The translations under genes were made by a program, and so were the position numbers. A stretch of DNA of 52,372 nucleotides, taken from NCBI GenBank assembly GCA_937958695.1, contig CALGNK010000026.1:1-52372 (forward strand), written 5' to 3'. The notes below the pieces were generated by a model. It was not told the origin of the DNA and ran no database searches. It saw nothing but the letters and a program-made list of their open reading frames with translations. Positions 4,104 to 11,327 of the stretch are shown piece after piece; within the stretch, counting starts at the first letter, position 1; every line of letters begins with the position of its first letter. The DNA is from an uncultured bacterium. Its GTDB lineage: Bacteria; DUMJ01.

Positions 4104-6509
4104 ATGAATAGGTTTATTCTGAAAAGGCTTATAAACTTTTTTAATAAAAATTTAGTTATAATCTTAGTTATTTACATGTTTATTTTTTTACTGGTAATAT
4201 CAAAGGGAATCATCTCTTTAGGAGCAGGAGCAATGTTATTTCTTCCTATTATACTTTTCTCTACAATCCGATGGAAGTTAATGGGTGGATTAATCTTTTC
4301 TTCATTACTCCTTTCTATACTTAGTCCTATCTATCTCTACAATCTAAAGGGGAATCCCACTTCTCTTATAAGCGGAATATTTTCGACCTTTATAACGGTA
4401 ATCATCCTAGGAACTGCGGTTACACTTATAGAAAGAAGAGAACTACAGCTTAGAGAATCTGAAAGGCGTTATAAGGATCTATACGAGAAGTTAAAGAAAA
4501 ATCTAGACCTAATTCAAGTTATGGTTGTTGCCCTTGATGCAGAAGGTAACGTTACATATGTCAATCGTAAGGCATGCGAGATACTTGGCTATAAAGAAGA
4601 AGAAATAATCGGGAAAGATTGGTTTAAAAGCTTCCTACCAAAAGATACTGCCAAAGAGTTAAAGTTAGTATTCAAAAGAATCATTAATGGGGAAATAGAA
4701 CCCTTTGAATATCATGAAAATCCTGTTATTGACAAGGACGGAAAAGAGAAGATTATAGTTTGGCATAATACAATTATACATAACGATACAGGGGGTATTG
4801 TTGGAACTCTAAGTGCAGGAGAAGATGTAACTGAACTTAGAAGATTAGAAAAGGAGAATCAGGATAGACTTCGAAATTTAGGTATCCTCTATGACGGTGC
4901 AAGAGACCTCATTAATGAAGATTTAGACATCCAAAAGAGGGCTCAAATTGCCACAAGAATCTGTGTAGAAGACCTTGGAGCAGACCTAGCCTGGATTGGG
5001 TATAAAGAAGCCAGTGGCAAAGTAAGTCTTATAGCCCAGTATCCACCAGATCATAGTTATACTAAAGATCTTACCGTAAGGTGGGATGAAACACCTTTTG
5101 GTCAAGGTCCTGTTGGAAGGTCCATTAGAATAGGAATTCCGCAAATCATTGAAGATGTAGTAAATGATTATCGTTTTGAACCGTGGAAGTATAGGGCTTT
5201 AACTTATGGATTCTATACAGTAGGGGCATTTCCCCTAGTAAGTAAGAATAATGTCTTTGGAACACTCGTTTTATATAGTAAGCAGTCTGGATACTTCACA
5301 TTAGAACGTAAAGACATAATATATACACTTGCCCGTTTAACAGCTTCTTCTTTAGAAAATGCTAGACTATTTGAAGATGTACAGGATAAATTTAGAAAAA
5401 TCCAATACTTACATAATATAGATAATGCTATTTCTAGTAGTCTAGACTTAAAGGTTATACTTAACACCGCAGTAGATGAGGTTATTAAACAATTACATGT
5501 AGATGCAGTAGCAATTTTTCTATATAATCCTTCTATCAATACGCTAGAATATGCATATGGACAGGGTTTTCGTACAAATCTCATCAAAAATTCAACCCTT
5601 AGGCTTGGTGAAAGTCTAGCTGGATCTGTAGCTTTGAGGAGGCGCATGGTTAAAGTATTAAACCTAAGAGATTTCATACAAAACTTTACGTTAAAGGTAT
5701 ACTCTGAATATGTTAGAGAAGGTTTTGAAAATTTTGTTATTGAGGAAAACTTCATTTCCTACTATGCGGTTCCGCTTCTCTCAAAAGGAGAACTGTTTGG
5801 TGTATTAGAAGTCTTTAATCGTTCACTGATAGAAGAAAACGAAGAATGGGAAAATTTCTTAGAGATCTTAGCCAAACAGATAGCTATAGGTATTGATAAC
5901 GTAAGACTTTTTCAGGGCTTACAGGAGTCTAATATTAGGCTTATCAATGCTTATGAAGAAACAATTGAAGGTTGGGCATATGTCCTTGATCTTAGAGATG
6001 GAGTTACCGAAGGACACAGTAGAAGGGTAGCTGATTTAACAGTGAAAATAGCTAAGATAATGGGTATAGATGATGAAAAATTAACACATATCCGTAGGGG
6101 GGCACTATTACACGATATAGGTAAGATAGCTATTCCAGATAACATATTACTAAAACCAGGGAAACTTACAGATGAAGAATGGGAGATTATGAAAAAGCAT
6201 CCTACATATGCCTATCAAATGCTATCTAAGGTTGAATATCTTCTTCCAGCTATTGATATACCTTTGTATCACCATGAGAAATGGGATGGGAGTGGTTATC
6301 CAAAAGGATTAAAAGGAGAGGAAATACCTCTACCAGCTAGGATCTTTGCAGTGGTAGATGTCTATGATGCCTTAACAAGCGATAGACCTTACAGAAAGGC
6401 ATGGACAAAAGAGGAAGCAATAGAATATATAAAAGAACAGTCAGGTAAAAAGTTTGATCCAAAAATAGTAGCTGTATTTCTAGATATAATAAAAGAGATT
6501 AATCATTAA
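4104..6509 (+). CDS. Sensor cyclic-di-GMP phosphodiesterase: membrane, PAS, two GAF domains, HD-GYP
   Basis: An 801-residue signalling protein. Residues 1 to about 110 hold several hydrophobic membrane segments. A PAS domain follows (about 132-245, with EEIIGKDWF), then two GAF domains (about 260-400 and 440-605), then an HD-GYP domain (about 620-795). The HD-GYP signature is complete: H670-D671 in LLHDIGKIAIP, HHEKWDGSGYP, and DVYDALTSDRPYR. HD-GYP enzymes hydrolyse cyclic di-GMP, so the protein probably links a membrane or small-molecule signal to second-messenger turnover. The start at ATG 4104 follows AAGGAG at 4096-4101. It is transcribed alone. The ligands of the PAS and GAF domains cannot be read from sequence. 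Confidence 0.92.
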   Translation: MNRFILKRLINFFNKNLVIILVIYMFIFLLVISKGIISLGAGAMLFLPIILFSTIRWKLMGGLIFSSLLLSILSPIYLYNLKGNPTSLISGIFSTFITVIILGTAVTLIERRELQLRESERRYKDLYEKLKKNLDLIQVMVVALDAEGNVTYVNRKACEILGYKEEEIIGKDWFKSFLPKDTAKELKLVFKRIINGEIEPFEYHENPVIDKDGKEKIIVWHNTIIHNDTGGIVGTLSAGEDVTELRRLEKENQDRLRNLGILYDGARDLINEDLDIQKRAQIATRICVEDLGADLAWIGYKEASGKVSLIAQYPPDHSYTKDLTVRWDETPFGQGPVGRSIRIGIPQIIEDVVNDYRFEPWKYRALTYGFYTVGAFPLVSKNNVFGTLVLYSKQSGYFTLERKDIIYTLARLTASSLENARLFEDVQDKFRKIQYLHNIDNAISSSLDLKVILNTAVDEVIKQLHVDAVAIFLYNPSINTLEYAYGQGFRTNLIKNSTLRLGESLAGSVALRRRMVKVLNLRDFIQNFTLKVYSEYVREGFENFVIEENFISYYAVPLLSKGELFGVLEVFNRSLIEENEEWENFLEILAKQIAIGIDNVRLFQGLQESNIRLINAYEETIEGWAYVLDLRDGVTEGHSRRVADLTVKIAKIMGIDDEKLTHIRRGALLHDIGKIAIPDNILLKPGKLTDEEWEIMKKHPTYAYQMLSKVEYLLPAIDIPLYHHEKWDGSGYPKGLKGEEIPLPARIFAVVDVYDALTSDRPYRKAWTKEEAIEYIKEQSGKKFDPKIVAVFLDIIKEINH

Positions 6510-8819: not shown

Positions 8820-9662
8820 CTACTTAACAGGGAAATAACCCACCTCTGAAACAACCTTTTGCCCTTCATCAGAGAGAATCCAATCTATAAAAGCCTTTAC
8901 ATCAGGATCTTCATACTCGCAGGTATACATATAAAGATACCTGCTTATAGGATAAACCGCCTTCTTAATGTTCTCTTCTGTTGGAAGATATGCTGAGGAG
9001 TCCTTGTCTTTCTTTACCGGTAATATTTTAACCCCTTTAGCATAAGCAACTCCGCCATATCCTATGCTATACTTCTCTTTAGATACCGCATTTACTACCG
9101 ATGCGGTTCCTGGCATACTCTGGGCTTTACTAGTATAGTCTTGATTCTTAAGGACATGCTCTTTGAAAAATACATATGTACCTGAGTTATTCTCTCTTGT
9201 ATAAACTATTATTGGTCTATCATCCCAACCAAAATCTTTCCAGTTAGTAACTTTCCCTGTGAATATATCCTTAAGTTGGTCTAAAGTTATATCCTTCATA
9301 GGGTTATCAGGATGCACGTATATAGTTATACCATCAAGTGCGACCTTAAATTCTCTTGGATCTTTTCCCCAAGCCTTCTTTATAGCTGATCTCTCGCTTT
9401 CCTTAATAGGTCTAGAAGAATCAGCAATATCAGTGGTTCTATTTATTAGGGCAGCTATACCTACCCCTGAGCCACCACCCGATACCTGAACTATCTTTCC
9501 TTTAAATCTTGCCATATAGTTTTCTGCCAATCTTTGAACCATAATAACCATTGTATCAGAACCCTTAACAGTAACCCTACCTTTTATTATAGTCGCATAG
9601 GCAAATGTACTACCAAGTAGTAACAACCCAGACAAAAGTATTACCAATAATCTTTTTAACAT
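8820..9662 (-). CDS. pstS: Phosphate ABC transporter substrate-binding protein PstS
   Basis: A 280-residue periplasmic phosphate-binding protein. From ATG 9662 a signal peptide (residues 1 to about 20, ending STFAYA) is followed by the mature PstS fold. Phosphate-contact motifs are GSDTM near the N-terminus, SGGGSGVG, and RENNSGTY. There is no lipobox Cys, so the protein is soluble rather than a lipoprotein, which suits a cell with a periplasm. AGGAGG at 9671-9676 precedes the start by eight bases; the in-frame GTG at 9671 overlaps that site and is rejected. It follows phoA in the same operon. The pstCAB and phoU genes that usually accompany it are absent here. Confidence 0.92.
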   Translation of the reverse strand: MLKRLLVILLSGLLLLGSTFAYATIIKGRVTVKGSDTMVIMVQRLAENYMARFKGKIVQVSGGGSGVGIAALINRTTDIADSSRPIKESERSAIKKAWGKDPREFKVALDGITIYVHPDNPMKDITLDQLKDIFTGKVTNWKDFGWDDRPIIVYTRENNSGTYVFFKEHVLKNQDYTSKAQSMPGTASVVNAVSKEKYSIGYGGVAYAKGVKILPVKKDKDSSAYLPTEENIKKAVYPISRYLYMYTCEYEDPDVKAFIDWILSDEGQKVVSEVGYFPVK

Positions 9663-9674
9663 TTCATTCACCTC

Positions 9675-11054
9675 CTATTTTATTTCACCTAACATTCTAA
9701 ATATAGTCTTACCTATCTCCGTCTGATCTATAAATCCACCAAGCCTATAACTTCCTGGTCCAAGAGATACTACCCAAACCGGAGTAGCGGTATGGTCATT
9801 TGTAGCCCAAGCAGTCATATATACAGCAGAAAATCCAGCCCCAAGACTTGCATAGAATGGACTTGTAAGAGATGGTGTAATTGGCTTATCTGACTTTAAT
9901 CTCTCTATCCACTCTTGTGGGATGGTTAACTCTCCAACATAATGCTCACTAAATAATTTCTCAATACCTTCTTTATCAACTACAGATTTAGCTCTCTCAA
10001 AAGAGAAAGGAACAAGGAATATTTTATTTAGGTCTTCAACAGTAGGATATCTTCCTTTACCTGATGTATCGTAGCTTGTAGTAATAGAGAGCCCTCCATT
10101 ATCATGATCCGCAGTTACTATAAGAAGGGTTTCTCTTGGATGCTTATTATAGAAGTCAAAGGCAACCTTCACCGCTTCATCAAACTCTCTCAATTCTGCT
10201 ATTACACTTGCTATATCGTTATTATGTGAGGCGTGGTCAACTCTACTACCTTCAACCATAAGGAAGAACCCCTTACTATCTTTATAAAGTAGTTCTATAG
10301 CCTTCTCTGTCATCTCCTTAAGTGAGGGAATAACAGTTGGGTCTGCATCTAACCTATAGGGCATATTGCCACTTGAAAATAATCCTAAAACCTTTCCAGT
10401 TTTAACACTCTCTAACTCACCCAAATTAGATACAACGGTATAACCAAGCTCTCTTGCCTCTGAGATTAGGTCTCTCTCATCTTTTCTAGCACTTCCGGAG
10501 ATACTTTTTGGAATCCAGTAAGACTTCCCTCCACCTAAGATTACATCTATTCTTTTCTCTAGATATTGAACCGCTATCTGGTCCTGAAGACTTCTATGCG
10601 GAACATGTGAGGCAAAGACAGCAGGGGTTGCATCTGTAATTGTACTTTTAGCTATAAGTCCTGTCTTATAACCTAGTTCTATAGCCTTCTCCATAACTGT
10701 CTTTACTGGTGTTCCATCGGGAAGCATAGATACCATATTATTATTAGTCTTTTTACCTGTGGCTATAGCGGTTCCAGAAGAGGCGGAATCTGGGACTAAA
10801 GAGTTTAAAGCATAATTAGCTACAATACCTAACCTACCCAGATTGAACAACCTTTCTGTAATAAAGAATTCTTGTTCCAAAAGAAGTCTATTAAGATAGT
10901 AAGCTGAACCTAGATGTGCTAAACCTGCTCCGTCTGCAATCATAACAATAACATACTTAACCCTTGGAACTCCTGAAAAGACATAACTCTGAAAAGATAA
11001 TAAAAGAGCTAAGAGCAAAAGAACAACCGACAATTTTTTTACATAAAACTTCAT
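9675..11054 (-). CDS. phoA: Alkaline phosphatase (PhoA family)
   Basis: A 459-residue secreted alkaline phosphatase that releases phosphate from organic monoesters. The signal peptide is residues 1 to about 26. The metal and catalytic residues of the family are present: Asp in MIADGAG, the nucleophilic Ser in VPDSASSGTA, the metal ligands in GSRVDHASHNND and TADHDNGG, and the distal His in TNDHTATPVW. ATG 11054 lies nine bases from GGAGG (11064-11068); ATG 11060 is too close. The stop lies next to the pstS ribosome binding site, so the two are translated from one message. Five phased repeats upstream suggest phosphate control. Confidence 0.93.
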   Translation of the reverse strand: MKFYVKKLSVVLLLLALLLSFQSYVFSGVPRVKYVIVMIADGAGLAHLGSAYYLNRLLLEQEFFITERLFNLGRLGIVANYALNSLVPDSASSGTAIATGKKTNNNMVSMLPDGTPVKTVMEKAIELGYKTGLIAKSTITDATPAVFASHVPHRSLQDQIAVQYLEKRIDVILGGGKSYWIPKSISGSARKDERDLISEARELGYTVVSNLGELESVKTGKVLGLFSSGNMPYRLDADPTVIPSLKEMTEKAIELLYKDSKGFFLMVEGSRVDHASHNNDIASVIAELREFDEAVKVAFDFYNKHPRETLLIVTADHDNGGLSITTSYDTSGKGRYPTVEDLNKIFLVPFSFERAKSVVDKEGIEKLFSEHYVGELTIPQEWIERLKSDKPITPSLTSPFYASLGAGFSAVYMTAWATNDHTATPVWVVSLGPGSYRLGGFIDQTEIGKTIFRMLGEIK

Positions 11055-11110
11055 ACACATTCACCTCCATAAAAATTTTACCCCATGTTTATACCTCATC
11101 GCATCTATAG

Positions 11111-11174
11111 ATTAAAGCTTTTACTTTAAGTATTATTTAAAGACTAATTAAGGGGTATTTAATACTACATTAAA
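11111..11174 (-). promoter_or_regulatory. Pho-box-like direct repeats and -10 element upstream of phoA-pstS
   Basis: Reading the reverse strand from 11174, the pentamer NTTAA recurs five times exactly 11 bases apart: TTTAA at 11174-11170, ATTAA at 11163-11159, CTTAA at 11152-11148, TTTAA at 11141-11137 and CTTAA at 11130-11126. TTTAAT at 11116-11111 could be the -10 box. PhoB and PhoP boxes in other bacteria are tandem repeats on the same 11-bp helical pitch that replace the -35 element, and the downstream genes are classic Pho-regulon members. Confidence 0.6.
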
Positions 11175-11180
11175 GAATTA

Positions 11181-11327
11181 TTAAAATGGTTTATTGTTTT
11201 TATGATTAGTATTTCTTAAGAGAGGACATAAATAATAAAAACTTAGGTATTCTGAAACGTCAAAAAGAAAGTCTGTTAAGAAACTTCCATAATTTCCCAG
11301 CCTCCAATAATTACAGGTATCCTTCAA
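11181..11327 (-). CDS. Possible 48-residue small protein of unknown function
   Basis: A 48-codon frame starts at TTG 11327 behind GGGGG (11333-11337). A good promoter precedes it on the same strand: TTTACA (11375-11370) and TAAAAT (11352-11347) with a 17-base spacer. The product begins MKDTCNYWRLGNYGSF, is rich in aromatic residues, has two Cys, and resembles nothing I recognise. The frame ends just before the Pho-type repeats of phoA, so it could also be a leader peptide or a fortuitous frame beside the mobile element ending at 11395. Confidence 0.3.
   Translation of the reverse strand: MKDTCNYWRLGNYGSFLTDFLFDVSEYLSFYYLCPLLRNTNHKNNKPF

Follow-up and report, generated by a model that had tools for sequence, protein, structure and literature searches.

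Judged from its sequence, the array of TTAA repeats in front of the phoA-pstS operon is a Pho box of a known general kind, found here in an undescribed lineage and accompanied by an unexpected arm of predicted small RNAs. We hold it highly probable that this array acts as a multi-unit Pho box, through which the regulator called C19 below would control phoA-pstS and a wider regulon under low phosphate. The stretch of DNA analysed (52,372 nucleotides, the window) belongs to a source genome (G000) of 2.09 Mb in 57 contigs. Together with two congeners, this genome makes up our sample of the genus (three genomes), and the other relatives examined are kin at the domain level only.

In the window, six exact TTAA units follow one another in 11-bp steps (starts at 11126, 11137, 11148, 11159, 11170 and 11181), forming an array at 11126 to 11184 with the consensus YTTAA that reads on the minus strand, towards phoA. 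The earlier note had described five NTTAA repeats at this period between 11111 and 11174; the phasing stands, but the count and the span have to be replaced by those given here, the TTAA at 11112 being 14 bp off the nearest unit and out of phase. That TTAA overlaps the predicted minus-strand -10 hexamer TAATCT (11109 to 11114; TAACCT in both congeners), which is located 15 bp past the point where the last TTAA begins. Sequence comparison places a predicted transcription start (about 11102) and leader at 11064 to 11108 (minus strand), and the leader stretch ATARATnnRRTGAGGTATAA is largely common to the phoA promoters of the congeners and two SBP_bac_5 promoters. Downstream lie phoA (alkaline phosphatase, 461 aa, 9675 to 11060, minus strand; Pfam PF00245, E 1.3e-82) and, 3 bp behind it in one operon, pstS (phosphate-binding protein, 283 aa, 8820 to 9671, minus strand; TIGR02136, 250 bits with a cut-off of 206.6). 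A phoA promoter made of -35 TTTAAT, 17 bp and TATAAA is set aside, though not disproved, in favour of TAATCT, since the 15-bp placement holds across promoters. A 145-bp copy of the phoA promoter, 91% identical, is found in front of an SBP_bac_5 gene (L016, 7027 to 7171, matching about 11065 to 11209 in the window) and may be taken as a sign of promoter duplication.

Single TTAA occurrences number about 400 in the window, but when the window was dinucleotide-shuffled 200 times, or the 200 bp around the array 20,000 times, no phased run went beyond four units. Across G000, the exact three-unit pattern gives 23 matches per strand versus 1 for a backwards control, and the exact four-unit pattern gives 14 versus 0; each congener has 8 four-unit matches, again with a control of 0. 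Arrays as frequent by chance, the first of two outcomes that the earlier note had named as fatal to its reading, are thus not seen. Nor is the second, a lack of conservation at orthologous phoA promoters: both congeners (L035, L036) keep the TTAA units, with changed spacers and one 10-bp step. Several loci besides phoA also keep orthologous arrays. The spacers between the units diverge and include G/C runs (TACCCC, AACAGGG) while TTAA is invariant. One array conserved in the three genomes (C1:17548) was dropped, as it sits where the ends of two coding genes overlap.

The arrays also keep a fixed place in their promoters. Among 11 independent array promoters, 10 have a TANNNT whose first base lies exactly 15 bp past the start of the last TTAA, a count to be read with the caution that the rule was spotted on some of the 11 before counting and that two of them (metallophosphoesterase and second regulator) were found by searches of a related kind. 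The hexamer counted only when all members of an orthologous group had it, and between 5 and 39 every other offset occurs in at most 2 of these promoters. The lone exception is the lacI-type promoter, where arrays are present and no TANNNT was seen at +15; this four-unit array (L022, 5353 to 5389) precedes a lacI-type regulator in two genomes and violates the 15-bp rule. Because the -10 offset is fixed at 15 bp, the last unit occupies the usual place of the -35, and the predicted role of this position is that of an activator site replacing the -35. Over 50 units the logo is YTTAA, with C (0.58) or T (0.28) before TTAA and A (0.92) or G (0.08) as the fourth core letter; a G right after the four-letter core is found in none of the 50.

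The target list was built from pattern searches, so degenerate boxes may be missing from it. Array promoters precede phoA-pstS and the gene of a DUF4032-like protein in all three genomes, two SBP_bac_5 genes (that on L016, with the promoter copy, and a second on L017) and, in the congener G001, a metallophosphoesterase gene followed by an ABC permease gene, as well as a 5'-nucleotidase gene whose array is absent from G000 and G002. In G000, the operon of the second regulator (C37) has a four-unit TTAR array (TTAG and TTAA units) with TATAAT at +15. A predicted membrane peptide of 28 residues (MMKRILIIFFGLSALLVLSSVGTLLKTF in G000), divergent from proA, is encoded behind an array at L020 (about 4790 to 4905, minus strand) and kept in three genomes. 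The pstCAB-phoU operon has only two exact units (TCTTAACAATTTCTTAAA, conserved across the three genomes), at a distance of 48 bp (15 + 3 x 11, counted by eye) from the -10 TAAAAT. Two more PhoU-domain genes lie apart from the pst operon (L031, 8750 to 9424, and L032, 5970 to 6341, both plus strand). Elsewhere, an FMN riboswitch (RF00050; L018, 3444 to 3578, plus strand) precedes the gene of an ECF-type transporter substrate component. For several of the genes behind arrays no phosphate role is known (SBP_bac_5, DUF4032, lacI-type, the peptide and the RNAs), and the element thus seems to drive, beyond what had been proposed for it, targets without an obvious link to phosphate that include three predicted RNAs.

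These RNAs are predicted at three loci, near leuD, near rpmB-ilvA and between a convergent gene pair, where the array faces away from the annotated gene or is not upstream of it. Past the -10, a conserved stretch ends in a stem and a T run that are correctly oriented for the direction of the array only. Unit orientation, the 15-bp rule, terminator polarity and conservation all indicate the opposite strand, and for these reasons the arrays near leuD, proA and rpmB-ilvA are rejected as promoters of these annotated neighbours. The three arrays seem instead to drive small RNAs with terminators, each kept in three genomes (L016, about 5330 to 5440, plus strand; L019, about 4945 to 5030, minus strand; L021, about 5085 to 5190, minus strand). 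The RNA on the leuD side, which hardly varies among the three genomes, starts with the hairpin GUGUC-GAAA-GACAC. The folds have z values of -5.3, -3.7 and -2.9 versus shuffles; UUAGCAGUCUAG is common to two of the three RNAs, as is AGGUAACCUC to two, and clear anti-Shine-Dalgarno runs are found in two (CCCACCUCCC; AAACCUCCUCUUC), with a weaker run in the third. A covariance model, whose matches include its own training sequences, gives exactly three RNAs per genome at E 7e-10 or better; the next match is at 0.59 at best, and no further copies were found with it in the three genomes. No Rfam family matches the array loci. We regard the three as a conserved family of paralogous predicted small RNAs, new here. 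When the leaders of array genes were searched for targets, none paired clearly better than shuffled leaders did (z -2.3 to +0.4).

Does the same promoter geometry mark phosphate genes in other bacteria? A gene-blind query of four exact units with TANNNT at +15 was run on 386 genomes, 383 of them outside the genus, where it gives 14 sites in 10 genomes versus 2 for the backwards control. Five of the 14 lie directly before pstS-family genes in three families (L135, L136, L137, L138 and L143; L137 is assigned as pstS because it resembles L136 and L138, and the assignment of L143 uses Pfam family PF12849 only), one lies before an OmpR-family regulator (L131), and for the others no link to phosphate is evident. 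The arrays before pstS at L136, L137 and L138 are TTAAC arrays of one unrelated genus; the same genus has a second conserved array (L140, L141, L142), before a 123-residue protein without a Pfam match. The promoter rule, TTAA repeated at 11 bp with 15 bp to the -10, finds pstS promoters in unrelated bacteria without annotation.

The candidate Pho box of the earlier note is well supported. The arrays are 11-bp direct repeats that adjoin the predicted -10 in the place of a -35 (10 of 11 promoters), and they recur at orthologous phosphate promoters (phoA, and pstC with two units, in the three genomes), at other phosphate-acquisition promoters and at pstS in unrelated genomes. The claim of a new consensus is not supported, since YTTAA at 11-bp steps matches the published cyanobacterial Pho box. 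The latter repeats CTTAACCT in tandem three times or more, with linkers of 3 bp, before pst and phoA (PMC1906773); SphR/PhoB sites of Synechocystis PCC 6803 have been published, e.g. CTTAATTCtatCTTAATTTcgaCTTAATCA (PMC1906773), and EMSA shows that the box needs its TTAA core (PMC11126600). Both boxes share 11-bp direct repeats, at least three units and the YTTAA core. The arrays described here differ in having up to six exact units, placed strictly 15 bp from the -10, and in occurring in a different lineage; relative to the cyanobacterial YTTAAYY(W), the YTTAA is present and the following YY is found in part, the positions after TTAA being A/T-rich rather than CCT. The E. coli Pho box has two 11-nt direct repeats with the core CTGTCAT, and the core differs by species (PMC4415409). 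It resembles the arrays in its 11-nt direct units just upstream of the -10, where PhoB binds in tandem head-to-tail, but the CTGTCAT core is absent here and the unit logo is YTTAA.

We turn to the protein that may bind the arrays. G000 has two OmpR-family regulators, C19 and C37, while the congeners have C19 only. C19 (L033, 6467 to 7156, in G000), behind which a PnpS/PhoR-like kinase is encoded (best match PnpS), is the likely binder of the arrays, as no other regulator of the family known to use such repeats is common to the three genomes. It scores high but reaches no NCBIfam cut-off, neither that for PhoB (TIGR02154, 256 bits versus 296) nor that for YycF (295 bits versus 340). The best full-length PDB match is Mycobacterium RegX3 (2oqr), the regulator of the SenX3-RegX3 system and a response regulator of the same family; the DNA-binding domain alone is nearest to WalR/VicR/YycF, with PhoB more distant. 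The recognition helix, TVDVHIRWLREKL, is found in all three genomes. An array at the promoter of C19 itself was looked for and none was found. C37 is the regulator of a second two-component pair (L034, 5768 to 7671, minus strand), present in G000 only and divergent from an Fe-S protein gene; its helix LVEVYINYLRKKL is similar to that of CiaR, VVEVYVSKVRKKL.

In the proposed mechanism, the operator would be built of YTTAA half-sites arranged head to tail, with each helical turn (11 bp) holding one of them. Under low phosphate the C19 regulator, of the PhoB/RegX3/WalR type and paired with the PnpS/PhoR-like kinase, would bind the array, and the bound molecules, aligned along one face of the DNA, would recruit RNA polymerase instead of a -35 element. 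Transcription of phoA-pstS would then proceed from the -10 TAATCT, 15 bp downstream. With the same geometry, the regulon would comprise phoA-pstS, other phosphatases, the two SBP_bac_5 proteins, the DUF4032-like protein, the 28-residue peptide and the three RNAs, and pstCAB-phoU would carry a conserved two-unit version of the operator, further upstream. The three paralogous RNAs probably mask Shine-Dalgarno sequences and so repress translation.

The arrays could also be operators of another OmpR-family regulator that answers to a different signal, such as a CiaR- or WalR-like envelope stress, with the phosphate genes a mere subset of its targets. CiaR promoters of streptococci have the sequence NTTAAG-N5-TTTAAG, followed after 10 bp by the -10 (PMC3091779), a spacing identical to that of the arrays, which have more units and whose proposed regulator has a PhoB-like helix. 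The strongest CiaR targets are anti-SD small RNAs (csRNAs) that have a terminator and, in many cases, a 5' stem-loop (PMC3091779, PMC8186281), as the arrays also precede predicted anti-SD RNAs. The WalR/VicR-like DNA-binding domain of C19 fits such a signal as well, and C37 has both a CiaR-like helix and, at the promoter of its own operon, a TTAR array. However, C37 is missing from both congeners, which do have arrays and RNAs; the G that CiaR needs after TTAA (box TTTAAG) never occurs in the arrays; and phosphate genes recur behind arrays, with the geometry marking pstS in unrelated bacteria. We consider this alternative improbable. Far less probable still is that the arrays are phased UP elements or bent DNA that boost promoters without a dedicated regulator. 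They are indeed AT-rich, 11-bp phased and adjoin promoters, but TTAA is invariant despite the diverging spacers with their G/C runs, the last unit sits at the -35 place, and the backwards control is without such arrays. That TTAA repeats here by chance, in intergenic DNA that is AT-rich, might be suggested by how common the tetranucleotide is, but this reading is already refuted computationally by the shuffles, the backwards controls, the three-genome conservation and the fixed promoter spacing, and its probability is negligible.

Under the multi-unit Pho box reading, the RNA arm invites comparison with the csRNAs. By sequence and folding, their layout (a short RNA behind an operator, an anti-SD stretch and a terminator) is found at all three loci in the three genomes, the anti-SD stretch being weak at one of them. 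Regulation by CiaR, which also defines csRNAs, does not apply, as the CiaR-like C37 is absent from two of the three genomes that have the RNAs. By analogy, the arrangement works like the CiaR-csRNA circuit and is not a member of it, since the G essential for CiaR is absent here. We lean towards the view that a single shared PhoB/WalR-type regulator directly drives the three anti-SD RNAs and the 28-residue peptide from promoters with phoA-type arrays, and that translation would thus be reprogrammed in a phosphate-starvation counterpart of the CiaR-csRNA circuit that arose outside streptococci. The finding of this CiaR-like layout suggests that the pairing of PhoB-family regulators with anti-SD RNAs has arisen more than once. 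The genomes compared include no further member of the phylum, and for this lineage the arrays would provide a first testable Pho regulon, and they would link a phosphate regulon to a family of anti-SD RNAs in the layout described for CiaR in streptococci.
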